This document shows positions 34,829 to 61,087 of a stretch of DNA of 64,000 nt, in pieces; position 1 is the first letter of the stretch, and each line of letters begins with the position of its first letter. The notes beneath the pieces were generated by a model that saw only the letters and a program-made list of their open reading frames with translations, had not been told where the DNA came from and did no database searches. A program made the position numbers and the translations under genes. The stretch spans positions 1-64,000 of the forward strand of contig NZ_WIXM01000001.1 in assembly GCF_010993965.1 (NCBI RefSeq), in the 5' to 3' direction. The stretch comes from Gracilibacillus sp. YIM 98692. Lineage in GTDB: Bacteria > Bacillota > Bacilli > Bacillales > Amphibacillaceae.

Positions 34829-36157
34829 TTACTCCACTTTCTCTAAACCAATTTCTTCTATTCCTTTTTGTACAAATTCGTTCTTCATAAAGTTCTCCCA
34901 GACAAAACCTGTTCGATAGTTTTCGATCATTAGCAACGTTATACCCTTATCAATACCTATCACATCTTGCGCATACCAATCAGGTGAAATCTCTAGATTA
35001 TAAGCATCTTTAAAACCATAATCTCCCCATAATTCAGGAATAGTTTCGTAGTGTTCTAGAGCTGCTATCGATTCTTCTGGTGTAAAAACAATAGAACCTG
35101 CAGCACCTGCTGGTGGAATCGTCCCATCTGTAAAATGAGCTGAATTATTTGAACCAGACGGACTTGCGCCATATTTCCCATTATATCCATTCGGTCCATC
35201 ACTAGCGGTAAGCCCCCAAGCGTTTGGTCCAAATGTTTCAAACTTATCGGCTTGATCCATCACATAATCACGATTGGCTTTTGAGGCCTTAATGGAGTTT
35301 TCAAACCAGTTAATCCCTTCTCTATCTTGATAATGACGAAAATCAAACCAAGCATGAGAGAATTGATGGGTAAAGATAGACCCAAACCATGAATGGATAA
35401 AAGGCTCCCCTTCTCCATACGCACGCTCTTGTCTAGTAAAGTCATAAAACATTTCTGGGTTTGTTGGGTAAGTTGGGGAACCCGCACCTAGGAAATACAT
35501 CATTAATTGTTCCGCATAAAAGTCCCATGCACCCGCAAATCCACTTTCTGGTGAATAAGACATATAGAATAAATTATTGTTTGGATTTCTATACCAATCC
35601 CAATTCACACGTCTATATATATCTTCAGCCTTTTTCTTGATATCCCCTTCAAAGTATTCACCTGCTGTAATAGCTCCACTGATCAAGATGGCTGTATCAA
35701 TAATAGAAACCTCACTAGTGCCTGCTCTTGTTGCATCATCTATATTTAAAAAATGATAGAATACCCCATTTTCATGTTCAGCATGCAATAATAAGGTATC
35801 CAATGTACCTTCAATCCGCTTTTCCGCTTCTTCTTTCGTTATCCAATTTCTTTCAGCACCTATCGTTATAGCTGTTAAGCCGAATCCAACAGAAGCAATA
35901 CTAGCAAGTTCCGGGTTATTTGGCGCTCGATCTCTAATTAATCCATAACCTGTACTTCCTTCGTCTGTATTAGCCTCATCCCAGAAAAACTCAAAACTTT
36001 TTTTGCTTTCCTTTTCTAAAATAGGCGGCCCTTCTATCTCGAGTTGGCTCTCAGTTTGCTCCTTTTGCATATTTAAAAGCCAATATCCACCTACCAAAAA
36101 TAATAAAAGGAGTATACTTAACAAAATGACCTTATTTTTTGCAGCCCATTTATTCAT
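34829..36157 (-). CDS. Membrane-anchored glycoamylase-domain (GH144-like) glycosidase
   Basis: 442 residues: an N-terminal membrane anchor (about 12-29) without a lipobox, a linker, then the PF10091 glycoamylase domain: SIASVGFGLTAITIGAERNWIT, GVFYHFLNID, TSEVSIIDTAILISGAI, FGSIFTHQFSHAWFDFR, NAWGLTASDGPNGY, and GIDKGITLLMIENYRTGFVWENFM. GH144 members are endo-beta-1,2-glucanases, and the domain also occurs in cyclic beta-1,2-glucan synthases. It should act outside the membrane to shorten the polymer for import. It follows the GH94 gene, separated by a hairpin. Enzyme class by family, exact linkage by context. Confidence 0.85.
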   Translation of the reverse strand: MNKWAAKNKVILLSILLLLFLVGGYWLLNMQKEQTESQLEIEGPPILEKESKKSFEFFWDEANTDEGSTGYGLIRDRAPNNPELASIASVGFGLTAITIGAERNWITKEEAEKRIEGTLDTLLLHAEHENGVFYHFLNIDDATRAGTSEVSIIDTAILISGAITAGEYFEGDIKKKAEDIYRRVNWDWYRNPNNNLFYMSYSPESGFAGAWDFYAEQLMMYFLGAGSPTYPTNPEMFYDFTRQERAYGEGEPFIHSWFGSIFTHQFSHAWFDFRHYQDREGINWFENSIKASKANRDYVMDQADKFETFGPNAWGLTASDGPNGYNGKYGASPSGSNNSAHFTDGTIPPAGAAGSIVFTPEESIAALEHYETIPELWGDYGFKDAYNLEISPDWYAQDVIGIDKGITLLMIENYRTGFVWENFMKNEFVQKGIEEIGLEKVE

Positions 36158-36248: not shown

Positions 36249-39200
36249 TTAGAGATAAATGTCAATAACATTATCCTGATTATGAAACTTCTCTTCTATT
36301 TCCTGTTTGAAGATGCGGAAGCCTCCTTCACGATAACGATTTTCCACGACCTCTATTTGCTCCGCCGCTTTACCATTGATCATGACTTTTTTAGCCTCAT
36401 TTCCTAAATGATAGACAAAGGAGACTGGCTTGTTATTAAATTTAAATGTTAGGGATAATCCATCAAACTTATTATCCAGAACCGGATCAATCACTAAACC
36501 TTTTTCTTCTTCGCGAATGCCGAGACAGTTAGAAATTAATTGATTCATATAAATACCAGGACCGCTGGAATAAATTTTCCAACCACCTTTAACAGCAACT
36601 GTGCCATCTCGTAATTTCCCAAAGTTTTCTTGCGCATCATAACGTGTGTTAAATTTTCCATCAGAACTGCTAAAGTATGCATTACTTTGTCGGATTTCAG
36701 CATTTGGCACAGCATCTTGGATACCGATTGGGGTAATCATTTGCAGTCCTTGCCAAACTTCATCTTTTTTCCCTAGCTTCGCCATTGCCTCTATATAACG
36801 AATATGGGCATGTACATATTGCAAGCCAATTTCCCGACCGAAATTAGACGCTTGTTCTGCCCGTTTAAAGTGTTTACTTACACCACCCTCGTAATTAGCA
36901 GGACGATTCATTAATCGCACACCGTCTGGACAATATAATTTTTCTTTAATAAGTTGATAATGTTGATCTGCTTCTTCTGGCGTCAATAGTTCACTAATCA
37001 TACTTCGCTGCATTGGTAACAATCGATAATCTATTCCTGTCTTCGTGTCCTCTGGATGTAACATTAATTCCACTTCATCCGGTTTTTCCATATATACAAA
37101 ACCAGGAAGTACATCGGTTTGTAACATATACTTTCTAAAATCTTTCTTTATACCATTTGCGAGTAATTCTAGCTCTTCTGCTTCTTCTGGATTTACCTCC
37201 TTTAATACATTTGCTAATTTATTTATTACTTGATAGGTTAAAGCTACCGTCCAGCTGCTAACCATATACTGCTTTAACTGTGCATTTGCTGGTTGAAGCG
37301 TATCATCCCAATCCCCATCACCATAGGAAGATAGGAAGGTATCATGTAAGAAATGGTCTTTTATATACTGAATCTCTTTCTTCACATGATCCAAAATCGA
37401 GACTGGCTTATCGGTTAGCTTAAAGCCATCATCACGTTTTGAATATGGTACTTTTTCCTGTAAAATGTCATAATCCTTCGTAGCTGCTAAATAATCACCA
37501 ATCACCTTTAACGGCCAAACAATAACATCTCCGTGACTTTCCCCTGCTTGGATATGAAAATACTTGTCAAACATAAACCACTGCGGCCAATTACCATCTT
37601 CTTCAAACTGATGCGTATAAACCGTTTTAATGATTTCCTTAACAGAACCATAATTTTGTGTCGCCATAAAGTATTCTGTTGGGCCTTGACATACATCCCT
37701 TGTTCCCCAAGCAGCACCGCTATATTGTTCTAAACCATGTGGTACAGAAAAATGAACGAGCATATTGTGTGTATACCACCATGCTAAAGCATTCATTTTG
37801 TTAAGTTCCTCAGTGATTTCACCTCGATGCGTTAATTGGAAGCCATTCATTACATTTCGATAGTAATCACGGTATCTAACTCTTTCCGTCTCCCAATCCT
37901 CTGTTGCAACAGGGATATCTCCCCCATACAAAAGTCCCTGAACCGTCATTTTCCATCCATTTGTTTCCTCTATTTCATACACTTGCAATGATGCTGCATT
38001 TGCTTCCACATTCTTCACTAATCTTTGCTCATCTGTAAGTTGAAAATCTGCTCCTTCCAAATGAAGCTTATATGTCAAATCTGGATAAACCGGTGCATTC
38101 ATCGAGGCTTGATCTGCCGTAATAGTGACAACATTGCCATCTCGACTGACATGATAAGCTACCTCATATTCATTTGGATGCATCACCACTTGATTGGTTA
38201 CAAGATAGCGATAGTGTTTGTCACTTTCTGATTCTACGGTTAAGGTAACCTCTGGATTATTTAATGTCGTGTAGCTTGTAATAATAAATAATTCCTTTCC
38301 CGTTTTGTAATACCAGCGAGCATAATTAAAACCTACTTCATACATAGACGGCATCGTAAGCAAATGAAACACACCATCTACTTCCACATAAATTCTTTGC
38401 CCTGATGTCTTAGCAATATTTAAAGCATTACGTGCATTGGTCAATAGCTTGTTAAAATTAGTATTTCCCACGACCACTTGAGCATTAAAAATCCCATACA
38501 TCCATGACGTTGACGTAATCGTATCTTCTTTTAATTTATGATTATTCCCAGACATAATAATGTGTCCATGCGGGCGTTCCACTAATAACTCTTTTTCTTT
38601 CAATACGACATGTTCATGAGTATCTGTGAAAAAGGACAACATGTTACCATCTAGTTTTTCTTCTTGATGACGATTAGGAAAATAGTGTTCTATTTCCTCT
38701 GCTGACATTGATGTCGTCTTAAGCGGAAGGCCGATATCCGCTTTTTTATCTGTTTTTTCAACTTTATTAGGAATAGAAGGAGATGTTGAAGCTACTTCTT
38801 GCCAAGCCGTGTTAATCAAATCCTCATATTCTAGCTCCGTTACTGCTGTCTCATGACTTTCGCGAAATAACCCATAAAAGACAAATTGTGCTTCACCAGA
38901 TAGATTTACTTTCTCTGATTGCAACGCTGTATAAGCGAATTCATATTGATAAACCTCATTAGGTAATGATGGTTTTGTTAAAATACTAGGCTGATTTGTT
39001 TCTTTATATTCTTTTCCAAAGAATTGAAAGCCGTCGGTCGAATATCCTATTGCTTTCGATAACGAACCTTGCTGCATATAAGGAAAGCCTGAGGATTGCC
39101 CCTGATTTTGACGGGAGCAAATTACGTACCCTTTGTTTTCGTCATTAAAAACGCAATGATCAACGTATTGTGAAACATAAGCCTCATTATTTCGAATAGC

Positions 39201-39596
39201 ACCTTTATCCGCCAAGCCTACATCTTGTCCATAAATAATATCTATTTCTTGACCATTTCCTTTTACTTTTACATCCCAAAACCATACACCTTTAGAAGTT
39301 AAAGTAAAGATAACTTGATATTTTATGTCATAAATGGTCCCTGTCCATATCACTGCATTATCTCCATAGGCTACTTCACTTTTAGAATCAACTCCAAGTA
39401 ATGGAAAATATTGAATTACATCATCTTGATGAATCCGTAAGAAAAGGTTATTTAACGAACCGTCTACAGGGTTCGACATTAACTGATTTAGCATAATAGA
39501 CTTGTAAGTAGCTTCATACATATCACCACTATTTAAAAAGGAAAAACAATAATCTCCTGCTTCTAATTTAATGGTTGTGTTTTCTGTCATCAACAT
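36249..39596 (-). CDS. GH94-family phosphorylase, resembling 1,2-beta-oligoglucan phosphorylase
   Basis: 1115 residues, the large size typical of oligoglucan phosphorylases as opposed to about 800 for cellobiose phosphorylase. The C-terminal (alpha/alpha)6 catalytic part has AAWGTRDVCQGPTEYF, HQFEEDGNWPQWFMFDKY, GESHGDVIVWPLKVIGDYL and SYGDGDWDDTLQPAN with the general-acid Asp near residue 760; the N-terminal part is beta-sandwich. It would split beta-1,2-glucooligosaccharides with phosphate to glucose 1-phosphate. No signal peptide. Strong AGGAGG ribosome site. A LacI-type operator lies 34 bp upstream of the start. The identification rests on motif style remembered from Listeria SOGP; other GH94 specificities are possible. 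Confidence 0.85.
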   Translation of the reverse strand: MLMTENTTIKLEAGDYCFSFLNSGDMYEATYKSIMLNQLMSNPVDGSLNNLFLRIHQDDVIQYFPLLGVDSKSEVAYGDNAVIWTGTIYDIKYQVIFTLTSKGVWFWDVKVKGNGQEIDIIYGQDVGLADKGAIRNNEAYVSQYVDHCVFNDENKGYVICSRQNQGQSSGFPYMQQGSLSKAIGYSTDGFQFFGKEYKETNQPSILTKPSLPNEVYQYEFAYTALQSEKVNLSGEAQFVFYGLFRESHETAVTELEYEDLINTAWQEVASTSPSIPNKVEKTDKKADIGLPLKTTSMSAEEIEHYFPNRHQEEKLDGNMLSFFTDTHEHVVLKEKELLVERPHGHIIMSGNNHKLKEDTITSTSWMYGIFNAQVVVGNTNFNKLLTNARNALNIAKTSGQRIYVEVDGVFHLLTMPSMYEVGFNYARWYYKTGKELFIITSYTTLNNPEVTLTVESESDKHYRYLVTNQVVMHPNEYEVAYHVSRDGNVVTITADQASMNAPVYPDLTYKLHLEGADFQLTDEQRLVKNVEANAASLQVYEIEETNGWKMTVQGLLYGGDIPVATEDWETERVRYRDYYRNVMNGFQLTHRGEITEELNKMNALAWWYTHNMLVHFSVPHGLEQYSGAAWGTRDVCQGPTEYFMATQNYGSVKEIIKTVYTHQFEEDGNWPQWFMFDKYFHIQAGESHGDVIVWPLKVIGDYLAATKDYDILQEKVPYSKRDDGFKLTDKPVSILDHVKKEIQYIKDHFLHDTFLSSYGDGDWDDTLQPANAQLKQYMVSSWTVALTYQVINKLANVLKEVNPEEAEELELLANGIKKDFRKYMLQTDVLPGFVYMEKPDEVELMLHPEDTKTGIDYRLLPMQRSMISELLTPEEADQHYQLIKEKLYCPDGVRLMNRPANYEGGVSKHFKRAEQASNFGREIGLQYVHAHIRYIEAMAKLGKKDEVWQGLQMITPIGIQDAVPNAEIRQSNAYFSSSDGKFNTRYDAQENFGKLRDGTVAVKGGWKIYSSGPGIYMNQLISNCLGIREEEKGLVIDPVLDNKFDGLSLTFKFNNKPVSFVYHLGNEAKKVMINGKAAEQIEVVENRYREGGFRIFKQEIEEKFHNQDNVIDIYL

Positions 39597-39629: not shown

Positions 39630-39643
39630 TTGAAACGTTTCAA
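39630..39643. promoter_or_regulatory. LacI-type operator TTGAAACGTTTCAA before the GH94 gene
   Basis: Perfect 14-bp palindrome in the 82-bp gap between the permease gene and GH94, 34 bp before the GH94 start. The same core precedes the binding-protein gene at 51990 and both LacI genes, so it probably marks a second, internal promoter controlled by one of them. Confidence 0.75.
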
Positions 39644-39678: not shown

Positions 39679-40644
39679 TTATTCTCCAGTAATACCTGAG
39701 CGGTCTACTCCTTCCACAAACCATCTTTGGGTAAAAATATATACAATTAACAACGGTAAAATAGATAACAATGTTCCAGCCATACTTATCCCTTCATTTA
39801 TATCCTGTGCACCTTCACTATTCTGACTATTGTTCAATTCATCGAATGTAGCCGAAAATTTTTCGAGCTGAATTGGTATGGTTGTTAGTTCATTTCCAAG
39901 ATAAAGACTTGCTAAAGTCGTTTCATTCCAGTACCAAACAAAGGAAAATAAGAAGGCAATGATAATCGCCGGTACAGCCATTGGAATAGCAATCGTTAAA
40001 AATACTCGGAAGTTTCCAGCACCATCAAGGTTTGCAGCTTCCTCTAATGCTTTAGGCATCATACGGAAAAACTGATAAAAAATAAGAATAAAAATCGTAC
40101 TATTTAAACCTTGCCCAAACAAAGCAGGTAGTAAGAAGGAGAAAATACTTCCAATCAACTCTAACTCATTAAAAAACACATATCTTGGTATCATCAACAC
40201 CTGTGGCGGGATGATAAAAGTGATTAATACAATTCCAAATATTATTTTTTTAAAAGGAAATTCATACCTTGCAAAACCATAACCAATAATAGCTGCAATT
40301 GCTGTTTGAGCAATAGATGGGATTATGGTTACATAAAGTGTTTGTCCCAGTGTAGGAAAAAAGTTTAATACCTGAAAAGCTATCATGTAGTTCTCTAAAT
40401 ATACAGTTGATGGAATCCAATTGATTAATGGATTTAATAAGTCTTCTAAGGACTTAAAGCTATAGGATCCCATATAGATAAGTGGATACAAGTATACGAA
40501 CCCTATAACAATCAAAAGACTGTATACACAAAGCTTTAAGAAAAAACCATTGTTCCCCTGAACACCTAAGAAAAAACTCTTGATCTTCGTTAGGTAAGCA
40601 CTCATATTCTTTTTTTGAATCATTTTTTGCTTCGAATCCATCAT
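39679..40644 (-). CDS. CUT1 ABC sugar permease, MalG type (pair 2)
   Basis: 321 residues with a longer N-terminal tail and six predicted membrane segments. EAA loop ALEEAANLDGAGNFRVFLTIAIP, C-terminus TQRWFVEGVDRSGITGE. It forms a heterodimer with the MalF-type subunit at 40658. The upstream genes of its operon include two binding proteins, so which one serves this pair is not decided by order alone. Confidence 0.92.
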   Translation of the reverse strand: MMDSKQKMIQKKNMSAYLTKIKSFFLGVQGNNGFFLKLCVYSLLIVIGFVYLYPLIYMGSYSFKSLEDLLNPLINWIPSTVYLENYMIAFQVLNFFPTLGQTLYVTIIPSIAQTAIAAIIGYGFARYEFPFKKIIFGIVLITFIIPPQVLMIPRYVFFNELELIGSIFSFLLPALFGQGLNSTIFILIFYQFFRMMPKALEEAANLDGAGNFRVFLTIAIPMAVPAIIIAFLFSFVWYWNETTLASLYLGNELTTIPIQLEKFSATFDELNNSQNSEGAQDINEGISMAGTLLSILPLLIVYIFTQRWFVEGVDRSGITGE

Positions 40645-40657
40645 TTTAATTCATCCT

Positions 40658-41521
40658 TTATCGATACTTTTTATTCCCCAATATCAACACCCCTACACCA
40701 ATAACCAAGACTAACGTAATGACTAAGAAGTAAATCCAGGACAACGCAGAGGCATAGCCGAAGCCTGTCGAAATTTCAAACATTTGACTCTGAATATGTT
40801 CGACTACCGGATTTAGCGCAAATATGGAATACGTAACAATGGTATAGATTAAATTGACGATTATCATGGGAAATAGTGTAGGTAATGTTACTTTCCAAAA
40901 ACATTCCCAGTTTGAGGCACCGTCAATTTTTGCAGCTTTGTATACTTGTCGATCCGTTTTCTGTAGTGCTGCTAAAAACATTAAAATTTGTACACCTGAG
41001 TACCATAAAATAATGACTAAATTTTCCATTAAATAAGTCAAAATAGTATGGAATAAGCCTTCTGTATTAGAAAGTACCGCATCAAAGATTGCATATTCTT
41101 CAATCGATGGGATTGAAGTAACGTCTTGTTCCATTAAATCCATGATTACTGGACCACTTGCAATAATAACCGGGAGGAAGAACACCATTCTAAAGAACGT
41201 TCTCCATCGTATCGGTTGATTTAATAGTAAAGCAATAATTAATGAAAATACGATGATAATCGGAGTAGAAATAACTAACTCACGCAAAAATCTTAATAAT
41301 ACTTGTGTATATTGAATATCCACCGTAAAAGCATAAATATAATTTTCAAATTTCACGTAAGTTGTGACAATACCATTAGGTGTTAACTTGACTTGTTGAA
41401 AACTAAGAAACAATGAATATACTAAAGGAAAAGCAGTGAAAATGAGAAAGCCTATAATCCATGGAAAAATAAAGGAATACCCGACTAAGCTTTTTTTATT
41501 TTTTAAAGACAACTGTTTCAT
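40658..41521 (-). CDS. CUT1 ABC sugar permease, MalF type (pair 2)
   Basis: 287 residues, six predicted membrane segments, EAA loop QVYKAAKIDGASNWECFWKVTLP. Its ATG overlaps the TGA of the DUF5696 gene (ATGA), a strong sign of coupled translation and of a functional link. The ribosome site GGAGG lies within the end of the DUF5696 gene. Confidence 0.92.
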   Translation of the reverse strand: MKQLSLKNKKSLVGYSFIFPWIIGFLIFTAFPLVYSLFLSFQQVKLTPNGIVTTYVKFENYIYAFTVDIQYTQVLLRFLRELVISTPIIIVFSLIIALLLNQPIRWRTFFRMVFFLPVIIASGPVIMDLMEQDVTSIPSIEEYAIFDAVLSNTEGLFHTILTYLMENLVIILWYSGVQILMFLAALQKTDRQVYKAAKIDGASNWECFWKVTLPTLFPMIIVNLIYTIVTYSIFALNPVVEHIQSQMFEISTGFGYASALSWIYFLVITLVLVIGVGVLILGNKKYR

Positions 41522-43788
41522 GACTGATTCCTCCGGTCCACAACGTTATAGCCTTTTTCTTCAATCGATATGCCATCTATATCTTTTTTCCTATTTGTAT
41601 AGTTCACGTAAATGGATATACCATTTGAATACTTCACTTCAACTACACCTGTTTCATGAACAATACGATCCTTTATGGTTTCTCCTTCTACTTTCCCTAA
41701 CGTTTCCTTCATTACTTTATACTGCTCAACTATGGTATCTTCCCAATCGTCAAATTGAGATGTATACAAGTCATTTGACGGCGTGTGCATCAGCTCATGA
41801 GATGGCTCTGATGTTAAATAAAAGGATGGATATGCACCGTATTCTATCATTCTCAACAATTCGTCCTCTGGGTTATAGTGAAAGTTAGAGAATGATGCAT
41901 AATATGGTATATCACCTTTTAATACAATTTGTAAAAACGGAACCGTATCTGTTACAAATTGATAATTAGATGTATACATCGGTATATCAAGATAACGATC
42001 CGTTAAAGCAAGCATATAATCATTAGGTTGGTAAAATGACAGAGATTTCATATTTTCACTTAATTCTTCAAACATATCTTGATAAAATGAAATAGCATCT
42101 GATCGCATCATATCACTATTAAAATCTGAAAATAGTGTGTTTGCGGTTGTATCTACGGCTAAATGGTTGATATGATGCTTTTGGTAATTCTCCTTATCTT
42201 TCTCCATTATTTCCAATGACTTCTTAGGACTCAAATGATAATAATTGGTTTTCTTAGTCGTAATAATTGGTTCTGCATTTATTTTTCTTGCTATATCTGT
42301 ACTTCCCGAAAATCCTTTAGCATTGTTAAATGCCTTCGTGTAATCAGTATAATAATAAAATGGAATATTATTTTTTTGGAACAACTGATTTACTTCCTCG
42401 AAATCATTTTTGTCTCCTAATACACTTTCAAATGGGAACTTATTCGGCAAGGTTCCTGTTAATCCGCCATCTGACCAACCACGATAGACAAGATGAAAAT
42501 CATTTACTTCTTGTGCTCTTAACCTTTCTACATATTGAGGTAACTCTTGGATTTTGGTCATTGGTACAACCGAATCCCAGATAAGACCACTTTTCACTTC
42601 GCCCCCAAGGAACTCTAATCGAGTATCAACCTCATCACCTTTAGACAATAACATGTTATTATCTTTTAAATATTGTTTGTAAGTTTGTGCCATTCCGACA
42701 TAATCTGCTTTCTCATCACTTAAGAAGGTGATCTTTTCTTGAATATCGAATTGGTTTATTTCTTCCTGGTACACATTATAGCCGTCCATTTTTTGACTTG
42801 TTGGCTGAAAATATTGATAACGGTAATGATACTCCGTGGCTATCCAATGAAAGTCGGTTGAAATACCGGATGGATAAGCTAATATCTCAGCAAAATTCTT
42901 ACCTTCCTCAATCACCGTAAAATAGGCATCTTTATTTACTGTATCGACAAGACCGTACACAGGCAACGTAACTTGTTGAGGTGGTACAATGCGGTTATCT
43001 TCCTCATTATTACGACTTCGTGTAAACCCTTGGTCCTCTCCATATACCGTTGCTTGGAACGGAGAGGAAGAGGCTAGATGCCTTTCTGAAAAGCGCATTA
43101 ATGCACCACTTCCATCAGGGATAAATAAATACCCATTACTTTCTTCTACACTTTCAACTGCTCCTAAAAAAGGATACACTCGCATCGTTGCTAATCGATT
43201 ATCCTCTTCTCTAATTCCTTCTTGTCGAACAGAAACATTAATAGAACCTCCATCTAATCGAACCTCTAATGGCACTGCTATGCCAGCTTCTTCAAAACTT
43301 ATCTCGGCTTTAAAACCATTATCTAACTGCTCCATTGTTATTTCGGATTGATTTGTTAATATACTTTCTGTTGATTCCTTGCCATCATCATTAATATAAT
43401 CAATCGTAACTGCTGAATGAGCCATGTTAGTCCAAGTGTTGTTCAAATTGTATTCTTGATCCATATCAAGACCAGACATCCAAATAAATCCTGTCTTTTT
43501 GTTTTCTATTTGGAGCGCAAGGGAATCCTCTTCCACATATAAAGCCAAACTGTCATTTTCCGCTATTAATTGATAGGAGTCGATCAAAGTATTTCCTTCT
43601 GATTCTGCACCGTCAACTTCTGGTTGAGTGTATTGGTTGGATTGATATCTTAACATTTGATTTGTTCGTTTTTCTTCAATTTCTGAGACCTCTGTATCTA
43701 CTTCACCTTCTGTTAATGCATTAGCAATAGCATGAATAGGGAAAAAAAGCAGTAGAATGAGTATTAACCATTTCACCTTCTTAAACAC
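41518..43788 (-). CDS. Secreted DUF5696-type protein
   Basis: 756 residues: a signal peptide (about 1-23, cut near AIANA), a beta-rich N-terminal half that contains a GYLFIPDGSGALMRF segment, and a C-terminal half that reads like a TIM-barrel glycoside hydrolase (FHLVYRGWSDGGLTG, IPFYYYTDYTKAF, HLAVDTTANTLFSDFNSD). No anchor visible. I match it to DUF5696 by memory of its style and neighbours. GTG start with a perfect GGAGGTGAT ribosome site; it overlaps the YIP1 gene by 8 nt and the permease gene by 4 nt. A glycosidase or glycan-binding role outside the cell is inferred; no function is established. Confidence 0.78.
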   Translation of the reverse strand: MFKKVKWLILILLLFFPIHAIANALTEGEVDTEVSEIEEKRTNQMLRYQSNQYTQPEVDGAESEGNTLIDSYQLIAENDSLALYVEEDSLALQIENKKTGFIWMSGLDMDQEYNLNNTWTNMAHSAVTIDYINDDGKESTESILTNQSEITMEQLDNGFKAEISFEEAGIAVPLEVRLDGGSINVSVRQEGIREEDNRLATMRVYPFLGAVESVEESNGYLFIPDGSGALMRFSERHLASSSPFQATVYGEDQGFTRSRNNEEDNRIVPPQQVTLPVYGLVDTVNKDAYFTVIEEGKNFAEILAYPSGISTDFHWIATEYHYRYQYFQPTSQKMDGYNVYQEEINQFDIQEKITFLSDEKADYVGMAQTYKQYLKDNNMLLSKGDEVDTRLEFLGGEVKSGLIWDSVVPMTKIQELPQYVERLRAQEVNDFHLVYRGWSDGGLTGTLPNKFPFESVLGDKNDFEEVNQLFQKNNIPFYYYTDYTKAFNNAKGFSGSTDIARKINAEPIITTKKTNYYHLSPKKSLEIMEKDKENYQKHHINHLAVDTTANTLFSDFNSDMMRSDAISFYQDMFEELSENMKSLSFYQPNDYMLALTDRYLDIPMYTSNYQFVTDTVPFLQIVLKGDIPYYASFSNFHYNPEDELLRMIEYGAYPSFYLTSEPSHELMHTPSNDLYTSQFDDWEDTIVEQYKVMKETLGKVEGETIKDRIVHETGVVEVKYSNGISIYVNYTNRKKDIDGISIEEKGYNVVDRRNQS

Positions 43789-45802
43789 GCAGCATCACCT
43801 CCTGTAAGATAGAGCTTATGAAGTCATATACTTGATCAAACAAGACATACAAGACAAAGAAAACTAATACGGTTAAAAACATGCCAAATAAAGTAAGCAA
43901 AATATTACGGACGGTTCCCCAAAATGTATAATCATGTATTTCCTTAATCGTTATAAATAAAAGTATAAGCGACCATGCCGTAATTACTTGCATAGACAAA
44001 GTGTAAACAAATGCCTCATTATAAGTGAGAACATTTGAGATTAAAGTAATCGGCAAAATAAATAATAGATATGGGGCTAGAGAATAAATAGTGCCATTAA
44101 AAACATCTCTAAATCTTCCCTCACCATCTGTAATGGTACTTACTAAATAGTTAACAACAATAAACAGTAGAATCGGAATTAGAAGTTTGCCTATTTCGAA
44201 GAATATATTCATTTCTTCTAAGGCTTGATCCGTAAATAAAAACCCTGTCCAATAAATCATTAAAACATATTCCACAAGCAAGATAATATATAAGACGGCG
44301 GATGATAAGATGGACACCTTTTCATACTCTTTTAGATAATACAAGCTATCAAGTGGATGTTTAATAAAATTTTTAATATAGAGAATTTCACTCAGCAATT
44401 TATTACGATTCCAATTTGACTTGAAAGCTCTTAATGGTTGCAAAATATTCCGTTTTTTATCCAACAATTTAACCACAAAACGTATGAAAAGCAGGATTAG
44501 AATAATGAGTATTACATTTGCTAAATGATCTTCCATCCACTTATATCGCACTTCCCAAAAAGCGGTGGAATAGCCTTCTTTATCATTAGCTAATTCAAAT
44601 TCATGAAGTGCTTCTTCATACAATTGTTGCTTATATAATGCTTCCCCTTTTGCCGTATGCGCTAGTCCATATGAAGAGTTCAACTTTAATACTTCATTCC
44701 AGTATTGCTCACTTTGAACATAGTAGCCTTCCTCAAACAAAGCTAAACCTTGATGCAGTATTGTCGTAAATTCCGTTGGTTCAAATACCTGAATGACACC
44801 TAACTCTCGATCTGTCACATAGACTCTGCCAGAACTGTCTACATCGATACTCGTTGGCTGAACCGTTAACCCTAATCTATTCGTTGCTTTTGTCTGTCCT
44901 CCAAAGGAAAATAATAGATTACCAGAACTATCATATTCAGATATCACACCATCACTACCTACTGTGTATATGTTACCAATAGGACCAGTAGCGATGTCTA
45001 CTAAGTTTGTATCCTCTGTAATACTAGGAGGCAAAATATTACCACCAGCAATGTTTAATTTTCGAACAGCCTCCCAAGTGGTGCCTGAAGTCACTGTATA
45101 GACGAGTCCCTGTTCATCAATAGCAACATTGCTAGCGGCAGGTGGTTCCTTTAAAAACAGGTTAGCTCGTTCTCTTTGAGTCGTGATAAAATTTTGCAAA
45201 GCACTTCCCATAGTTGGCTCTAGTGTGTTTGCCCCATAGTACCCCAAGAAAGTTCCGTCTTGACTTAATTGGATAATCCCATTTGTTGCACCTTCACCAA
45301 TAATGTAAATATTCTGACGTTGATCAATTGCGATTTTTTCTGGTTTATAAGGGGCATTCTTCCCAAACAATGGCTCATCAGGCCTAGTATACTCTTCGAT
45401 TAGTTCTCCATTTTCTTCAAATTTAAATACAGTTTCGTTTCCATAATCTGCTGCATAGACGCTACCATTTTGATCGGTGTAAACTCCTATTGGTTTCTGT
45501 AAAATTTCTTCACCATATTCTTGAATGAGTTTTCCTTTAGTATTAAATTTTTTTACAGTTTGAGTGCCCGAATCTGCGATCAACACGTGATCATTCTCAT
45601 CAATATATATATCCTCGGGATTTACAATCTCCGAACCCTTTGCAAATAATCCAATCGGGACATAAGCCGTTTGTGTTTCAATTACATTTCCATCAGCTGT
45701 TAATGTTTCTGTCTTATATGGTACAGAAACGGAAGCAGAGGAATATGTGGGAAACAGTAGGATTAACCATAGGCCAAACGCTGCAATGAAAAACTTCTTC
45801 AT
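43781..45802 (-). CDS. NHL beta-propeller / TPR / YIP1 membrane protein
   Basis: 673 residues: a signal peptide (1-23), an extracellular NHL-type propeller (about 50-350, repeats such as PEDIYIDENDHVLIADSGTQTVKKFN and GVYTDQNGSVYAADYGNETVFKFEENG), a short TPR-like helical pair (about 360-410), a membrane segment (about 432-450), then a YIP1-type domain with about five membrane segments (480-665). So a large sensor-like head is tied to a polytopic membrane domain. It is translationally coupled to the DUF5696 gene and sits between two CUT1 permease pairs. The role is unknown; sugar sensing or assistance of uptake is a guess. Confidence 0.82.
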   Translation of the reverse strand: MKKFFIAAFGLWLILLFPTYSSASVSVPYKTETLTADGNVIETQTAYVPIGLFAKGSEIVNPEDIYIDENDHVLIADSGTQTVKKFNTKGKLIQEYGEEILQKPIGVYTDQNGSVYAADYGNETVFKFEENGELIEEYTRPDEPLFGKNAPYKPEKIAIDQRQNIYIIGEGATNGIIQLSQDGTFLGYYGANTLEPTMGSALQNFITTQRERANLFLKEPPAASNVAIDEQGLVYTVTSGTTWEAVRKLNIAGGNILPPSITEDTNLVDIATGPIGNIYTVGSDGVISEYDSSGNLLFSFGGQTKATNRLGLTVQPTSIDVDSSGRVYVTDRELGVIQVFEPTEFTTILHQGLALFEEGYYVQSEQYWNEVLKLNSSYGLAHTAKGEALYKQQLYEEALHEFELANDKEGYSTAFWEVRYKWMEDHLANVILIILILLFIRFVVKLLDKKRNILQPLRAFKSNWNRNKLLSEILYIKNFIKHPLDSLYYLKEYEKVSILSSAVLYIILLVEYVLMIYWTGFLFTDQALEEMNIFFEIGKLLIPILLFIVVNYLVSTITDGEGRFRDVFNGTIYSLAPYLLFILPITLISNVLTYNEAFVYTLSMQVITAWSLILLFITIKEIHDYTFWGTVRNILLTLFGMFLTVLVFFVLYVLFDQVYDFISSILQEVMLRV

Positions 45803-45820
45803 TTCCCTTCCTCCTCTAAA

Positions 45821-46702
45821 TTACTTAATACCTGAATGTGCCATTGTATTCATTACTTTACTTTGCATAAATATAAAGATAATGAGGTTTGGAACGAACA
45901 TTATTAAGGAAGCAGCTGCTGCCATTCCTTGCCCTGCAACTGTATTACCACTACCCGCATCAACAGCTAATGTGGACATAAAAAAGGCGAATGTCTTTAA
46001 ATTTTCATCATCCACAAATAAAGTGGAAGTTTCCGCATTGTTCCACACTGCTTGAAAAGCTAAGATCGAAATAGTCGCAATAGCCGGCTTCACTAATGGA
46101 ATGATAATCTTCCTAAAAATTTGAAAATCTGTAGCACCATCTATTAATGCCGCTTCAATTAGTTCGTCTGGTATTTGATCAATAAATTGCTTTACCAAAA
46201 ACAACCCTACTGGCATTGCCAATAATGGAAAAATATGTGCGAAAAATGTATTTAACAAACCTACTTCATCGATTAATAGATATCGAGGGATAGTAACAGC
46301 AGCAGGTACGAACATCAATGCAAGAGTATTAATTTCAAAAATAGTTTTCTTTAATTTAAACTGTTTTTTCGATAAAGCATAACCAGCCATTGCACTAAAC
46401 ACCACTGTAAAAAACACGACAATAATCGTTACTACTATGCTATTAAATAAATACCTTGACATTGGAACACCTGTTGCATTCGAGTTATTCACAAGATCCT
46501 GGAAATTTTGTAAAGTTGGTTTTTGAACAAAAAATCTTGGCGGATAGGCAAATAGCTCATCTATTGGCTTTAATGCATGTGAAAATATATAAACAATTGG
46601 AAGCATCATTAGCACTGCCATCGGAATTAAGATAAAGTAAAATTTAAGCTGACTTCTATGAAATCGGTCTGGATTAATTTTTGATCCATGAAACGAGGCC
46701 AT
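45821..46702 (-). CDS. CUT1 ABC sugar permease, MalG type (pair 1)
   Basis: 293 residues, six predicted membrane segments, EAA loop [23 protein letters not shown]. Ribosome site TTAGGAGGGATT. Partner of the MalF-type gene 31 bp upstream. Confidence 0.92.
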
Positions 46703-46733
46703 CCAATCCCTCCTAATTAGTTAATTTATCTAT

Positions 46734-47621
46734 TTAATCTTTTTCAGCAAATAACTTCATAGCTATCTTAGAGAACCCATAAATAAACAAGAGTAATAAA
46801 ACGGATAAAGCTGCTGCATAACCCATCTCATATCGAATAAACCCAAAATCTTCTAAGTGATTTACTATTAACTGTCCTGCGTATTGTGGTGTAGGGTTCT
46901 GTCCAGATAATTCCACCCCTATTGCTCCGGCTTGAAATGTTTGTACGACAGCCATAACAGCCCCAAACAACATTTGCGGTTTCATAGAAGGAATGGTAAT
47001 ATATACAATTTCTTGAAACCTATTTTTAATCCCATCAATATATGCCGCTTCATATATTTCTTGATTGATGTTTAAAACACCAGATAACATGGCTAAGAAA
47101 CCTACTCCCATACTTCCCCATAATGTCACAACAATCATAATTATCATCAAGTATTCAGGGGATTGAAGGAATTGAATGGGTTCATTAATAAAACCTATCG
47201 ATATTAATAAATTATTTAAATAACCTGTTTCATCCCCGCTAAAGATAATCTTCCAAACTACCGCCATTGCAACTCCTGCAGTCATGGAAGGCGAATATAA
47301 GATCAAAGCAAGTACTGTCCTAGGTCCTTTTGAAATTTGCGCTAACATCCAAGCTAATAAAAATGCTAGAATATAGCCTCCAGGTCCGACAATTAAAGAA
47401 AAAATCAGTGTATTTGGTAATACATATTGCATAAATGTATTATCTTGTGTCAGGATATTCACATAATTCTCTAAACCTATAAGAGATGGCATCTCTATCG
47501 TGTTAAAATAGGTAAAAGATAAGCCTATTGCGATGACCACTGGGATAATAATAAACGTCGTAAATAAAATTAAATAAGGTGCTAGAAACACTGATGTACT
47601 AACATGATTATTATTATTCAT
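46734..47621 (-). CDS. CUT1 ABC sugar permease, MalF type (pair 1)
   Basis: 295 residues, six predicted membrane segments, atypical EAA loop [24 protein letters not shown]. The start at 47621 (ATGAATAA) overlaps the stop of the large binding-protein gene by 8 nt, so the two are translationally coupled; a longer frame from 47651 would add ten residues inside that gene. The coupling ties this permease pair to the large binding protein. Confidence 0.92.
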
Positions 47622-50544
47622 TAACTTCCAGCCACCCTTCAACCTTCTCAATTGTTGGTATTGGGTAAGGTTTTATTACCTCACCATTTTCCATATACCC
47701 AAATTCCTCTAGCTTTCTCCGCATCTCTCGATTAATTAATATGACGCTGTCATCTACTGAAGCCCTTACATTCTCACCATCAAACACCGCTCTATTCCAT
47801 GCGTTACTAATCTCTCTTTCTACCATATAAGAATAAGGCGTTTTCGGTACTTCTCTTAAATACTCCCATTGTTCTAGAATCACGTCTTTATGTTCTTCTG
47901 GCAAAGGTAATTCTTCAAACGCTTCTAGATTAGCTGTATTCCACATGTATTCTGGTCCAAATAGCGTTTGCATCGTAACGGCATACTCCGTTTGGGTTTC
48001 TGTTGACATCCACCATTTTAGTAATTCCCATGCTTCTTCTTCTTTCTCATTTCCATCAAAGATCATCGAAGCTTGTCCAGATCCTGCTGCCCACCTTTCT
48101 ACAGTTCCGTCTTCCTGTTCTATTCCTGGTTGTGGTGTTATATCCCACCAACCGGAAATCTCAGGTGCAGCTGTCGTTAATTCTACATAAGTACCAAATG
48201 GTGCTACACCAATTGGTAAAGTAGAATATCGAAAATGGTTATAAAACCTTGGTACTTGTAGCGGCATACTGTAAATCGTGCTAAGATCTGACATAAACTG
48301 AATACCTTCCAAGGCTTTATCTTCATCAATGGCAGCACCAAGTCCATCTTCTTGATATATTTTTCCGCCGAATTGATAGATGAATGGCGAAGTAGTCTGA
48401 AAAGCTTTAAACGCTGACTCTTCCGCTAACGGAGTATAATAGTTTAAACCATACCTTTGTAACTCAGGAAGAATTTCTGTTACTTCATCCCAAGTATTAG
48501 GGATAGGAAGATTAAGTTCCTCCATAATATCCTTGCGATAGAACTGTACAAAAAAGTCCTGTGTTTCTGGCAAGGCATATACATTATCTTCAACAATTAA
48601 TGGCAAAAAGGCACCAGGAGAAAATTGCTGACCCACTTCTTCAAAATCGTCAAATTGCCTGAGATCTACTGCAGCTCCACGAATGGCTAACTCGTAAGGA
48701 ACCCAGTTACTAATTCCAATTGCTAAATCAGGCTGTGTATTAGCTGCACTAGCTAATACTAGTTTTGATTCATCTGGCATAAGCGAATATTTCACTTTAA
48801 TACCCGTTTCCGGTGTGAAATTTTGATCTGTCATATTTTGTAATAACTCTACATATTGTCTCGGACGATTTACCCACACCTCTAATGTGTCTTCTGACAC
48901 ATCTGATGTAGCAAGGTTTTCTTCTGTGAAAGATTTAAAAAAACTAAGTGTAGAGTCTTTCGTCTTTGTCCATAAATCCGCCTCTGCATCTGGAAGTCTC
49001 ACATCTCCATGCACATAAAATTGGTCTAACAATAACGGTTGGTTTGTTAACTGTGTTCGTATATTACCTAAAAATTGTGCTGCCGAATTAGACCCCGTCG
49101 ATAACTCTGTTAAACGACTCGGAATTTCATCCGGCTCAGCAGCTAATTTCTTTAATTTATCAATAGCTATTTTCATAGAAGAAATCTCAGTAGATTCAAC
49201 ACCATTATTTAAAGACATTAAATACGCCATTTCTTCTTCCAATAGATTAGCCCATTCTAATAATTGTTCATCAATACCAGGAATGTATTCTTCAATATCC
49301 CAATCACGAGTTCCCTGTTGATTCCCTGTTAATTTACGAATAGACAGGGATAACTCATCAATCTCTTGCATGACATCATCAATGGTAAATATGACACGTG
49401 CATGTGGAGAGGTATCCGCTTTTAAACTTATCTTATTTTTACCTTCTTCTAGATAAAACCAGTAGGGATCTCCTTCATTATTACTAAATGTTTCGTTATA
49501 CCATTTCTTGCTGTGCTTAAATTGATATTGCTCTACTTCCTCAAAAGGAACTTCATCATTTATAAGCAATGTTCGATAAACTGGTGCATTAGATGCTTTA
49601 TCCTGTAATGCTTTGAATGATAAACGATAGAAACCTGTTTTTTCTACTTCAACTTCCCAGCTGACTGTTTGCCCAGCTGTATTCCACGAATCTCCACCTA
49701 ATGTATTTAGATACAACCTGTCTAGGTCATAAGGTGTAACAGCAGGGTCTTCTGTAGCCATTGGCCTTATATATGAATTGTTCTTTTCTGAAGGGTGTTC
49801 TGCTTGATACTTGATTAAACCTTCTTGTTGTTCAGCTTCTGAAAAGCTATTCAGATATTCCTCATATGTTTGCACTTGTTTTACGGAGGTAATGTATACA
49901 TTACCGACTAACATTTCTCCTCTTAAGTTATTTAAAGTAATGGTATTCTTTCCTTCATTCAGATGAAATTGCAACGGACGTTTATACAAATATTGAGAAT
50001 CTTCTGCTTTTAAGTGTTGCCATTCTTTCAATCGAACCTGCCTTGGAATGATTTCATTTCCTGATCGATCTGTTTTAAAATCTTCTGTTTCATTCTTCCA
50101 ATAGCTTGGAAAAACAATCCGCCTACTCTCTGAATAAGGGTATTCACCATTCACTTGGATGGCACCTTCTATTGGAATAATCGAATCACCTTGCGGCAAA
50201 TAATCAAAACCAATTTCATACAACCCTTCTTTATCCACCTCTACTTCAACAGTTAAAGAATCTTGATTACGCCAATAGAACACACTATCCTCATAACCAT
50301 TGCTTTGTGATGATGGTAATAGCTCTTCATCATCAATATTTATAAAAGCAGATGGTGGGATAGATTGCTCGTAATGAGCAATACTATCCAAACCTTGATT
50401 CTGCCATTCGTTGAGTTTGAGGTGATAACGCTGTTCTTCCAATTGTTCATCAACTTCTGATTCACTTTGTTCATTAGCCTGTACCATTGACACTGGAATT
50501 AAAGACAGCATTATTAGTGATACAAACATCGCTTTAATCTTCAA
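47614..50544 (-). CDS. Large extracellular solute-binding protein with two beta-sandwich domains
   Basis: 976 residues, about twice a normal binding protein. A signal peptide ends near VQA-NE without any lipobox Cys. Residues about 70-230 and 285-395 are two similar beta-sandwich units ([17 protein letters not shown] and [29 protein letters not shown] and [13 protein letters not shown]) that look like carbohydrate-binding modules. A helical linker (400-500) leads to a family 1 solute-binding fold (525-960). TTG start with AGGAGG seven bases upstream. How the protein is held at the surface is unclear; it may bind wall, polymer or the neighbouring membrane proteins. Confidence 0.85.
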
Positions 50545-50571: not shown

Positions 50572-51990
50572 TTACTGACCCATTGCTTCCGACGCCTCTT
50601 GATACTTACTATTTGCTAATTCATTTACTTGACTAGCATAATTCTCATAATTGATCTCACCAGACACTGCATTGTTAATAAGAGTTGATATTGTCGCATT
50701 TGGTTCATCGCCGATTTCTACACCAGTTGGTGCCTTCCAACGAGCTTGCGCATAACCAGGCGTTGTCTTAAATGGCTCCACCACAGCATTATCTATATTT
50801 TTAAATGCTTCTTTTAATCCTGGAACATTTACTGTCTCAAAATATGCGTTTATTACTTCATCATCTGTAATTAACGGTAAACGATCTAAGGTCACTTCCT
50901 CTACTTCGTCAGCTATAGCGAGTCGCTCTAAATAGCCATCTTTGCCAAAGCCCATCCATTTCGCTAACAAATAAGCCTCTTCAGGATGTTCGGTAGAGCT
51001 GGAAATACCATAATAATCATGTGTGATAACATCTCTTTCACCTGGAATTCCTATAAAGTCCCATTCAAAATCCGCATTCTGTGAAAAAGCACTGATTGCC
51101 CAAGTGCCATCCCATTTAATACCAATTCCTTCGTTATACCAAACTTCATTAGCATTTTCACCATTGAAATTAGCTTTTTGATCGTCACTTAAAGGCTCAA
51201 AAGCATAACCATTACTATTAATATTTTGAGTAAACTCAATCCCACTAATAAATTCATTACTATCTAAATGAAAACCTTCTTCATTATAGGTATACCAACC
51301 AAGATCTTCATTGGCTGCTGCAGGATACCAATCCACTATAGAGAAAGTTTGATTTAAACCAACTACCCCTTGGTTAACGTTTGTAACATTACGAATTGCT
51401 TCATTAAATTCATCGAGGCTCATGCCTAAATATGGTACATCAAGATTTGCGTCTTCATATAAATCTTTATTGACATAGTACCCTAACATATGTTGTGAAG
51501 CAGGGATTGCATAAATTTGATCACCAACAGTAATGGAAGCAATAACGGAATCCGGCAATAATTCGAATTCTTTATCCTCTTTTGCAAGCTCACTTACATC
51601 TAACATCCACTCATTAGCAATACCAGTTGGTACAGTCGCAAGGGAAAATACATCTGGCATTGCACTTGCACTTGCAGCAGAAGCTAATGATTCCTCCCAA
51701 GGATCACTAATCGATTCGTCTATTTCTACGGTAATATGTGGATATTCCTCCATAAAAGCTTCAAGCATTAGCCGGTTGATATTTGTATCTCCTTCTGCAC
51801 CAAAAGACCAGCTAGCCATTGTAAGTGTTACTTGCTCTTTATCTTCATCGGAAACGTTATTGTTATCGGTTTCATTTGATTCATTTGTGTTATCAGCCTC
51901 TGACATTTCTGAACTTTCTGAATCATCACTACATGCGACTAACAAAGAAAACAATGCAACAAGAACCATTAGCGAGAACCACTTTTTCAT
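50572..51990 (-). CDS. ABC sugar-binding lipoprotein
   Basis: 472 residues: lipoprotein signal with LLVAC and acylated Cys20, an acidic Asn/Glu/Asp-rich linker, then a family 1 solute-binding fold. First gene of the long operon, 28 bp before the large binding protein. With two binding proteins and two permease pairs in one operon, it may serve the pair at 39679-41521, but this is by elimination. A perfect LacI-type operator lies 86 bp upstream. Confidence 0.92.
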   Translation of the reverse strand: MKKWFSLMVLVALFSLLVACSDDSESSEMSEADNTNESNETDNNNVSDEDKEQVTLTMASWSFGAEGDTNINRLMLEAFMEEYPHITVEIDESISDPWEESLASAASASAMPDVFSLATVPTGIANEWMLDVSELAKEDKEFELLPDSVIASITVGDQIYAIPASQHMLGYYVNKDLYEDANLDVPYLGMSLDEFNEAIRNVTNVNQGVVGLNQTFSIVDWYPAAANEDLGWYTYNEEGFHLDSNEFISGIEFTQNINSNGYAFEPLSDDQKANFNGENANEVWYNEGIGIKWDGTWAISAFSQNADFEWDFIGIPGERDVITHDYYGISSSTEHPEEAYLLAKWMGFGKDGYLERLAIADEVEEVTLDRLPLITDDEVINAYFETVNVPGLKEAFKNIDNAVVEPFKTTPGYAQARWKAPTGVEIGDEPNATISTLINNAVSGEINYENYASQVNELANSKYQEASEAMGQ

Positions 51991-52075: not shown

Positions 52076-52089
52076 TTGAAACGTTTCAA
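52076..52089. promoter_or_regulatory. LacI-type operator upstream of the transport operon
   Basis: TTGAAACGTTTCAA, a perfect palindrome (extended by one base on each side), identical to the site at 39630. The gap 51991-52272 holds nothing else identifiable. Confidence 0.75.
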
Positions 52090-52272: not shown

Positions 52273-53241
52273 TTAAGACGAGGAACGCGATATAAATTGA
52301 ATTGGAATTTGGTCAATTTCGAAATCTTTTTCTTTATGAATCATTTTGAATAAAGTTTTTGCAGCTGTCTCTCCCCATTCTTTTTTCTGAACACGAACTG
52401 TAGACAATGGCGGTTGAAAATATTTAGCTAATTCAATATCATCAAATCCCACAAAGGCTATATCAGTTGGTATATTCAAACCTTTTTCCTGGGTGGCTTG
52501 AATGGCTCCCATTACCATCTCATCATTTGCTGATATAAATGCTGTGGGATAATCGGTGTTGGTTTCTAAGTATTTTTTCATACTTAACAATCCGCTGACT
52601 TCAGTAAAGTCTGCTCTGATAATGTCTCTCTTATTATAAGACATCCCTCTTTTGGCAAGCGATTCTTTAAAACCTTCTAAACGTTTTTCTCCATCAAACG
52701 ATGTTTCTGAACCTGCAATGAAACCAATTTGCTGATGTCCTTTTTCCACCAAATAATTGACCGCACAGTCAATCCCATATTTATTAGGTAGTAATATTTC
52801 CTTTATATAAGGATTTTTAATCTCTCGATCTAATACAACAACAGGATATTTCTCGCTTGCTAACACCTCCAGCAAATCATTAGGAATATGGTAATTTAAT
52901 ATAATTGCTCCTCCTACATATCGTTCTTTTAGTAAACGATGCATATCTGCTGATGCACAAACCACCATCTCATATCCATTTCTTTCCACTTCATTCTGAA
53001 TACCTTCTAACAATTCGTTGAAAAAGGGACCTCTAAATCCGCTTAAGAAGAGTCCGATAATATCACTTTTATTCCTCTTCAAATTTTTAGCGTTCCCGTT
53101 AGGATGATATCCTAATTCATTAGCAACTAGTAAGACTCTGTCTCTTGTAGCTTGTGAAATTAATTTACTGCCATTAATAGCATAGGATGCAGTGGAGATA
53201 CTCACATTAGCTTTTTTCGCAACATCTTTTAACGTAGTCAA
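52273..53241 (-). CDS. LacI-family transcriptional regulator
   Basis: 322 residues: LacI HTH at the N-terminus (TTLKDVAKKANVSISTASYAINGSKLISQATRDRVLLVA) and a periplasmic-binding-like sensing domain. I take TTG at 53241 as the start: GAGG lies seven bases upstream, and the longer frame from 53385 would run through the operator at 53282-53297. Probably represses regions 5 and 6 and itself. Close relative of the LacI gene at 61125. Confidence 0.92.
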   Translation of the reverse strand: MTTLKDVAKKANVSISTASYAINGSKLISQATRDRVLLVANELGYHPNGNAKNLKRNKSDIIGLFLSGFRGPFFNELLEGIQNEVERNGYEMVVCASADMHRLLKERYVGGAIILNYHIPNDLLEVLASEKYPVVVLDREIKNPYIKEILLPNKYGIDCAVNYLVEKGHQQIGFIAGSETSFDGEKRLEGFKESLAKRGMSYNKRDIIRADFTEVSGLLSMKKYLETNTDYPTAFISANDEMVMGAIQATQEKGLNIPTDIAFVGFDDIELAKYFQPPLSTVRVQKKEWGETAAKTLFKMIHKEKDFEIDQIPIQFISRSSS

Positions 53242-53281
53242 TTGCTTACCTCTTCTCAATTCTACAAATTTTTCAGACTCT

Positions 53282-58866: not shown

Positions 58867-58876
58867 TGAGAACACC

Positions 58877-61040: not shown

Positions 61041-61087
61041 TCTCTGCACCCCTTTTAGATTTAAATGTTGTGATGATTAAGAGTTTA

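Follow-up and report, generated by a model that had tools for sequence, protein, structure and literature searches.

In the MsmX-dependent importers of the Bacillus type, which are ATP-binding cassette (ABC) transporters of the CUT1 kind, MalF- and MalG-like permeases with EAA loops work with a solute-binding protein (SBP) that is a lipoprotein, and the ATPase is encoded elsewhere in the genome. One permease pair per system is usual for CUT1 importers, without being strictly required, and the importer Lin1841 of Listeria innocua for beta-1,2-glucooligosaccharides consists of an ordinary SBP and one such pair. To our knowledge, the intake of long or complex glycans is much less clear in Bacillota than in Bacteroidota. 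Here we analyzed a stretch of 64,000 nt from Gracilibacillus sp. YIM 98692 (contig NZ_WIXM01000001.1, GCF_010993965.1), hereafter the window, which carries a cassette of seven genes on the minus strand (50544 down to 39679). The cassette shares the features of the MsmX-dependent importers, whereas it adds to them two different permease pairs, a second and giant SBP (BIG, 976 aa), and a fixed set of an NHL-Yip1 membrane protein and a DUF5696 protein. Judged from its conservation, the seven-gene cassette points to an undescribed sugar-import apparatus. We lean, by a little more than an even chance, toward one importer that comprises two channels, an NHL-Yip1 scaffold, two receptors, and a pseudo-enzyme that guides the glycan. 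The computed evidence covers gene content and order, co-occurrence, folds, the variation of residues, a common operator candidate, and the position of an ATPase gene beside three cassettes.

The minus strand of the window encodes, in this order, the SBP1 lipoprotein, BIG, MalF1, MalG1, the NHL-TPR-Yip1 protein, the DUF5696 protein, MalF2, and MalG2. An earlier note on this DNA had described two CUT1 pairs around the NHL-YIP1 and DUF5696 genes and had argued from start-stop overlaps at three junctions that the gene products work together. All seven open reading frames (ORFs) were found where the note had placed them; the SBP1 gene lies outside the span that it covered. The overlaps were real and, with the likely starts, measured 8 nt between BIG and MalF1 (38 nt with a TTG start of MalF1), 8 nt between NHL-Yip1 and DUF5696, and 4 nt (ATGA) between DUF5696 and MalF2. 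Scans for promoter and terminator consensus sequences gave fewer sites than in shuffled sequences and were not used.

In a sample of 299 genomes drawn from the order, full-length DUF5696 was present in 44 genomes at 58 loci. A search of these genomes with the NHL-Yip1 protein placed a relative next to 54 of the 58 loci, and the four loci that appeared to be without it in the table comparison all carried it when their DNA was read. Full-length matches to a BIG profile were found by a script check in exactly the same 44 genomes, when matches up to E 1e-20 and only two candidates per genome were considered. Three matches outside them, which might have meant that BIG is an SBP present elsewhere, were ordinary SBPs aligned over the SBP domain only (E 2e-21 to 2e-23), and this possibility was rejected. 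Weak DUF5696 matches occurred in 15 further genomes of the sample; one of them was above the cut-off and belonged to a GH129-family protein (genome G060). For comparison of gene order we assembled 139 loci, namely the window, 57 others from the 299 genomes, one locus found through NHL-Yip1 (L089), and the best 80 of at least 564 confirmed relatives in a genome collection. Of these 80, 20 duplicated others in the set. There were 119 distinct DUF5696 sequences, from which 104 representatives with less than 90% identity were taken, and genes were recognized in the loci by profiles built from the first locus set.

The order BIG-F1-G1-NHL/Yip1-DUF5696-F2-G2 was kept in 133 of the 139 loci, and the remaining six (L127, L139, L142, L144, L147, and L150) were cut by a contig end. 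Among the 133 ordered loci, BIG itself was cut in L163 and L168 and was split between two ORFs in each of L145 and L157. Outside the order, 20 loci were picked for spread from 37 full-length matches in 14 genomes of the class; all seven genes stood in the same order in 20/20, and the next gene recognized before BIG was an SBP gene. A chance neighborhood was ruled out by the order kept in all 133 loci in which the seven genes were seen. The co-occurrence count that the earlier note had proposed was thereby made, and the conserved linkage that it returned did not refute the note and supports that the genes belong together. ORF overlaps were also frequent across the loci (BIG/MalF1, 109/135; NHL-Yip1/DUF5696, 122/138; DUF5696/MalF2, 96/137), although starts were placed mechanically at the first start codon and the counts are inflated to that extent. 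The genes were closely packed, with no more than 60 nt from MalG1 to NHL-Yip1 in 132/137 loci and from DUF5696 to MalF2 in 135/137. Carriers among the best 80 included Bacillaceae, Paenibacillus, Cohnella, Thermosipho, Fervidobacterium, Erysipelotrichaceae, Lachnospiraceae, Oscillospiraceae, Izemoplasmatales, and one Chloroflexi metagenome-assembled genome; many of the carriers from Thermosipho onward in this list are metagenome-assembled genomes, for which carriage is provisional. Culturable hosts of the cassette are found in Halobacillus, Fictibacillus, Sutcliffiella, and Thalassobacillus.

All four permeases scored above the Pfam cut-off for BPD_transp_1. By alignment, the Gly of the EAA loop was present in 136/136 F1 and 136/137 F2 proteins (one gap); by a regular expression, the EAA motif was found in 134/137 G1, 136/136 G2, 126/137 F2, and 29/136 F1 proteins, the expression being too strict for F1. 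Two different permease pairs were present in all 133 fully seen loci. Recent duplication of one pair was rejected, since F1, F2, G1, and G2 each had an ordinary permease, F3 or G3, as the second-best permease of the window in 59/59 loci. The same closeness of each permease to the ordinary permeases of the window rather than to its counterpart in the other pair (59/59 loci each) would suit two independent, co-transcribed CUT1 importers, with SBP1 serving one pair and BIG the other, NHL-Yip1 acting as an assembly factor, DUF5696 binding glycan freely at the surface, and no joint complex. The two full pairs with EAA loops and the two SBPs are also in keeping with that alternative. The distance matrices of the seven genes, computed for 97 cassettes, correlated at 0.84-0.97, as expected for a unit inherited together; those of F1 and G1 correlated best (0.97), and less with BIG, NHL-Yip1, DUF5696, and F2 (0.84-0.92), which again fits separate importers. 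This gap may, however, reflect slower evolution of F1 and G1, whose mean identities of 61 and 58% were the highest, that of DUF5696 being the lowest (33%). Since the order was kept in all fully seen loci and NHL-Yip1 and DUF5696 always stood between the pairs, we consider two independent importers unlikely.

An MsmX-like ATPase gene was found beside BIG in L059, L066, and L081 (E 2e-121, 3.2e-122, and 4e-125). It either overlaps BIG or lies upstream of it at a distance of 13 or 11 nt, so that an ABC importer with a shared ATPase is the natural reading of the cassette. The window genome has one OB_MalK-type ATPase, which is encoded on a different contig. Eight weaker ATPase matches were seen in cassette loci (E 7e-33 to 2e-21), and the one in L060 stands after MalG2. 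In L059, L066, and L081, no adjoining SBP gene was seen (L081 is truncated in the stretch fetched). Sequence evidence, then, supports an uptake role for the cassette. In the suggestion of the earlier note that the block may be an undescribed glycan-capture machine, it is this uptake role that gained support, from the permeases with EAA loops, the MsmX-like ATPase beside three cassettes, and the glycan enzymes nearby in several clades. Propellers and beta-rich binding domains are frequent in surface proteins, and two cassettes (L036 and L059) have histidine kinase genes in their vicinity, as might be expected of a surface sensor or an adhesion device for glycans with transport as a secondary function; because the cassette encodes four permeases whose loops couple to an ATPase, and three loci have an ATPase gene attached to it, we regard such a device as highly improbable.

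BIG and SBP1 are both family-1 extracellular SBPs, as belongs to a CUT1 importer. The SBP_bac_1 domain of BIG sits in its C-terminal half, and an AlphaFold2 model (mean pLDDT, the predicted local distance difference test, 87.8) showed two beta-rich N-terminal regions and a helical segment followed by the SBP domain. The Foldseek matches of BIG included binding proteins for cycloisomaltooligosaccharide, cello-oligosaccharide, and beta-1,2-glucooligosaccharide, together with many fusions of maltose-binding protein. The earlier note had taken BIG to be non-lipidated, and a simple lipobox pattern indeed matched only 2/100 BIG proteins; its label of a protein fused to a carbohydrate-binding module is weak, because CBM_35 scored 19.2 bits against a cut-off of 28 in the window and appeared in 2/10 other BIG proteins, again below the cut-off. 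SBP1 is related to PDB entry 22hh (E 1e-92) and has a signal sequence ending in LLVAC; no paper was found for PDB entries 22hh-22hl, the relatives of SBP1. A script found a separate SBP gene adjoining 125 of the 139 cassettes, upstream in 108 and downstream in 16, with one locus having an SBP gene on each side. Of the 14 other loci, 8 were truncated and 6 had none in the script, L157 merely because its BIG gene is split. The position of the SBP gene thus moves around a fixed core, and BIG and the adjoining SBP are thus two receptors in one locus. The block of the earlier note therefore stands as a seven-gene unit accompanied by an SBP gene of variable position; the note had overlooked the lipoprotein gene directly upstream.

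The NHL-TPR-Yip1 protein had NHL (64 bits) and Yip1 (33.6 bits against a cut-off of 28.6) above the Pfam cut-offs and seven hydrophobic segments, including an N-terminal one. The TPR part of its name, which came from the earlier note, fell below the cut-offs (18.3 against 27 bits and 17.6 against 32.7 bits). NHL and Yip1 were encoded by separate ORFs in 16/139 loci and in 18/20 of the loci outside the order, and they were fused elsewhere; the split in L082 looks frame-shifted. When genes that are neighbors in some loci are fused in others, this commonly indicates that their products interact directly. No paper on Yip1 in sugar transport was found among the matches listed, and the accessible part of a Paenibacillus transcriptome paper (PMC4765114) names no NHL or Yip1 protein.

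The DUF5696 protein of the window matched its Pfam family with 618.9 bits (cut-off, 25.6). PF18952 was the sole Pfam match up to E 0.01, and GH129 was not matched. Its model (mean pLDDT 90.3) consisted of a beta-sandwich, a TIM barrel, and a C-terminal beta domain. In the Foldseek search, GH129-type enzymes came first (5opq, E 1.1e-37, TM-scores 0.64 and 0.73; NagBb, E 2.4e-27), with further matches to GH101, GH31, and GH36, and the sequence identity with the GH129-type PDB matches was 11-13%. Structure prediction of single chains, which the earlier note had listed as a check, gave in this way a GH129-like fold for DUF5696 as it gave an SBP domain for BIG. Alignment by hhalign with two GH129-like proteins (E 3.5e-5, probability 71.6) matched Asp546 of DUF5696 to an Asp and Tyr586 to a Glu, this Asp and Glu being presumably the catalytic pair of those proteins. 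The GH129 positions were set by this profile alignment and not by superposition, and the profile rests on two sequences because GH129 is rare nearby (1/150 and 1/348 genomes). Position 546 was Asp in 51 of the 104 representatives, including the window copy, and another residue in 53, mostly Ser, Gly, Arg, Glu, Ala, Asn, or Gln; about ten long-form members have an Asp at the next position, in a region of uncertain alignment. At position 586, Tyr was found in 66/104, as in the window, and Glu in 10, and the combination of Asp546 and Glu586 occurred in 0/104. According to the accessible part of the paper on the Zobellia enzyme (PMC5698469), Asp435 of NagBb is common to that enzyme (Asp486), the second catalytic residue differs, and the authors would assign the Zobellia enzyme to a new family. 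DUF5696 thus resembles the GH129-like glycosidases NagBb and DagB/ZgGH129 in its fold, but the Asp common to both enzymes is replaced in 53/104 representatives.

Since about half of the representatives lack the GH129 Asp, DUF5696 is probably often a pseudo-enzyme. As judged from these residues, the family is probably in large part a pseudo-enzyme that binds glycan, but some members may be active, or the active site may be a different one; the window protein is probably a glycan-binding pseudo-glycosidase. If DUF5696 were instead an active glycosidase, the cassette would be a cut-and-import system. The GH129-like fold and the Asp at the nucleophile position in the other half of the representatives speak for such an enzyme, as do the Asp546-Glu587 combination in 13/104, the invariance of Asp225 and Asn635 in all 104, and Arg562 in 102/104; Pro617 is likewise invariant. 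The variation of the second catalytic residue among known GH129-like enzymes (PMC5698469, accessible part) also speaks for it. The replaced Asp, the prevalent Tyr586, and the absence of any Asp546-Glu586 pair make this alternative improbable, and a GH144 relative in the window already supplies cutting. Two observations on single DUF5696 copies may be added. The L059 copy combines Asp546 with Glu587. The gene in L190 (genome G832) lies in two ORFs with frames of 783 and 128 aa and is thus probably broken or frame-shifted; G832 has one other copy, L187. The earlier note had held that DUF5696 is without an assigned role in uptake, and DUF5696 was named in no paper of the literature searched, whose reach excluded most subscription journals.

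In the single importer that we favor, the seven genes would encode one CUT1-kind ABC glycan importer with accessory subunits. The two different MalF-MalG pairs would form two channels powered in trans by the MsmX-like ATPase. The cargo-specific SBP lipoprotein and the giant BIG would capture oligosaccharides, the NHL-TPR-Yip1 protein would tether the outer parts to the channels, and DUF5696 would bind and guide the glycan chain instead of cutting it. The seven proteins may form a single physical complex. A bolder form, possible but doubtful in our judgment, is one obligate particle that combines four different CUT1 subunits with a Yip1 scaffold, a giant receptor, and a pseudo-glycosidase. By exchanging one SBP subunit, this particle would import many kinds of glycan, either cyclic or as long as polysaccharides, and it would be the counterpart of polysaccharide-capture machines in bacteria without the classical outer-membrane SusCD.

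Several points weigh against the single importer. Each permease pair might belong to a transporter of its own. The nearest neighbor of a gene agreed with that of DUF5696 in just 57-70 of the 97 cassettes, and operon linkage alone yields correlated distances, so that neither measure proves contact. The three loci with an adjoining ATPase gene belong to one genus and represent one clade, not three events. The 50 best Foldseek matches of BIG, over about 400-450 columns, covered the SBP domain only, and BIG and SBP1 are without a ligand on record. The window DUF5696 retains Asp546, some relatives combine this residue with Glu587 as counted above, and a missing second catalytic residue proves little, because even active GH129-like enzymes do not share that residue (PMC5698469, accessible part). 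As regards cargo, 53 of the 66 loci with less than 38% DUF5696 identity to the window had no SOGP (1,2-beta-oligoglucan phosphorylase family), GH144, or GH35 gene in the stretch read.

Features of the window, with the support for each assignment
Feature	Position	Strand	Support
SBP1, solute-binding lipoprotein, 472 aa; exchangeable, outside the invariant seven	50572..51990	-	SBP_bac_1 69.1 bits; PDB 22hh relative; signal sequence
BIG, secreted binding protein, 976 aa	47614..50544	-	SBP_bac_1 at residues 569-851 (Pfam); AlphaFold2; Foldseek
MalF1, CUT1 permease	46734..47651, likely ATG start 47621	-	BPD_transp_1; EAA-loop Gly
MalG1, CUT1 permease	45821..46702	-	BPD_transp_1; EAA motif
NHL propeller, TPR-like, transmembrane, Yip1 membrane protein, 673 aa	43781..45802	-	NHL and Yip1 Pfam; hydrophobic segments
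DUF5696 protein, 756 aa, GH129-like fold	41518..43788	-	Pfam 618.9 bits; model; Foldseek
MalF2, second F-type CUT1 permease	40658..41521	-	BPD_transp_1; EAA-loop Gly
MalG2, second G-type CUT1 permease	39679..40644	-	BPD_transp_1; EAA motif
SOGP, 1,2-beta-oligoglucan phosphorylase family, GH94-like	36249..39596	-	SOGP_N, SOGP_2nd, SOGP_4th
GH144-type endo-beta-1,2-glucanase relative	34829..36157	-	Pfam PF10091; PDB 5gzh, E 1.6e-42
GH35-type protein, beta-1,2-glucosyltransferase relative	32377..34794	-	PDB 7vkw, E 4.9e-54
SBP3 of a separate ordinary importer, Lin1841 relative	59829..61049	-	PDB 5ysb, E 9.4e-99
Palindrome TTGAAACGTTTCAA, LacI-type operator candidate, 5' region of SBP1 and cassette	52076..52089		Pattern scan
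Identical palindrome TTGAAACGTTTCAA between MalG2 and SOGP gene	39630..39643		Pattern scan

The genes next to the cassette of the window (Table) suggest its cargo. The palindrome TTGAAACGTTTCAA stands in front of SBP1 and the cassette and again between MalG2 and the SOGP gene, and this common operator candidate ties the window cassette to beta-1,2-glucan. With up to 2 mismatches to the copy at 39630, from which the search pattern was taken, there were 6 matches in the window against 0.71 expected, and 0/100 shuffles reached 6. Near copies lie at two LacI-type regulator genes (53283, 62136, and 62213), and one is inside another gene (63164). The palindrome at 53283-53296 falls within the 5' part of the LacI-type ORF 52273-53385; the LacI domain of this ORF begins at residue 51, and the true gene start is therefore probably further downstream. 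The cargo of the window system would be beta-1,2-glucan material. SBP3, accompanied by permease-type ORFs at 58045-58875 and 58877-59764, belongs to a second, Lin1841-like system for the same glycan, which suggests that the cassette may take the longer, cyclic, or substituted forms.

The tie to beta-1,2-glucan held for the window locus and not for the cassette family. SOGP or GH144 was nearby in 67/72 loci with DUF5696 at least 38% identical to that of the window, and SOGP, GH144, or GH35 in 72/72; the counts fell to 10/30 and 12/30, respectively, at 30-38% identity, and SOGP, GH144, or GH35 was nearby in 1/36 loci below 30%. Among 30 hand-picked neighbors in other clades were GH123, GH2, GH31, GH43, GH10, GH9, GH127, and arabinofuranosidase proteins and two FGGY kinases, along with proteins that have no evident connection to glycans, namely a P-type ATPase, a tRNA synthetase, two ABC exporters, an FtsX-type protein, and one protein without a match. 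A cassette special to beta-1,2-glucan was rejected on these grounds, and the differing enzymes between clades suggest a general glycan module. Two to four cassette copies were present in 7 of the 44 genomes. Genome G190 has four, of which only L050 adjoins GH144 and GH35 genes, so that one machine type may serve several glycans. The fixed seven-gene set is a defined target for study, and its cargo can be guessed from the neighboring enzymes.

Other genes at these loci were noted. The DUF2961 protein at 31245-32327 (331.6 bits), which we take to be GH172, lies inside the beta-1,2-glucan locus. At 27293-28570, a 425-aa protein had no Pfam match at E 0.001 and a weak similarity to GH144 (34-40 bits); its gene is paired with a sulfatase-superfamily gene (28585-30054), and the same pairing was seen in L090, L091, L093, and L094; in these four the locus ends within the second gene. 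As a guess, the 425-aa protein is possibly a divergent beta-1,2-glucanase that acts with a phosphodiesterase on substituted glucan. The sulfatase-family neighbor was discarded as a clue to the cargo, because it had distant PDB relatives only (best E 8.8e-28). Beside the Thermosipho cassette, a 1030-aa protein (L161:17541-20633) had no Pfam match at 1e-5.

Compared with described systems, the cassette of the window shares a glycan pathway with the Lin1841 importer, a relative of whose SBP is encoded in the window, and the SBP domain of BIG has the Lin1841 fold (5yse, Foldseek rank 19). Unlike SBP3, however, neither receptor of the cassette is close to Lin1841 in sequence, as 5ysb was absent from the 14 PDB matches of SBP1 and the 15 of BIG (E 0.001). 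YknW, the fourth component of YknWXYZ of Bacillus, belongs to the Yip1 family and assists assembly. The cassette has another likeness to this system, where, according to the accessible part of its description, a membrane partner is encoded with the ABC transporter. By analogy, YknWXYZ may serve as a precedent for a Yip1-type partner in an ABC system, whereas it is an exporter of a toxin peptide and has neither an SBP nor sugar permeases. The alginate ABC importer of Sphingomonas sp. A1 resembles the cassette in the CUT1-like import of very long glycan chains, but it belongs to a Gram-negative bacterium and works with one permease pair, without Yip1 or DUF5696.

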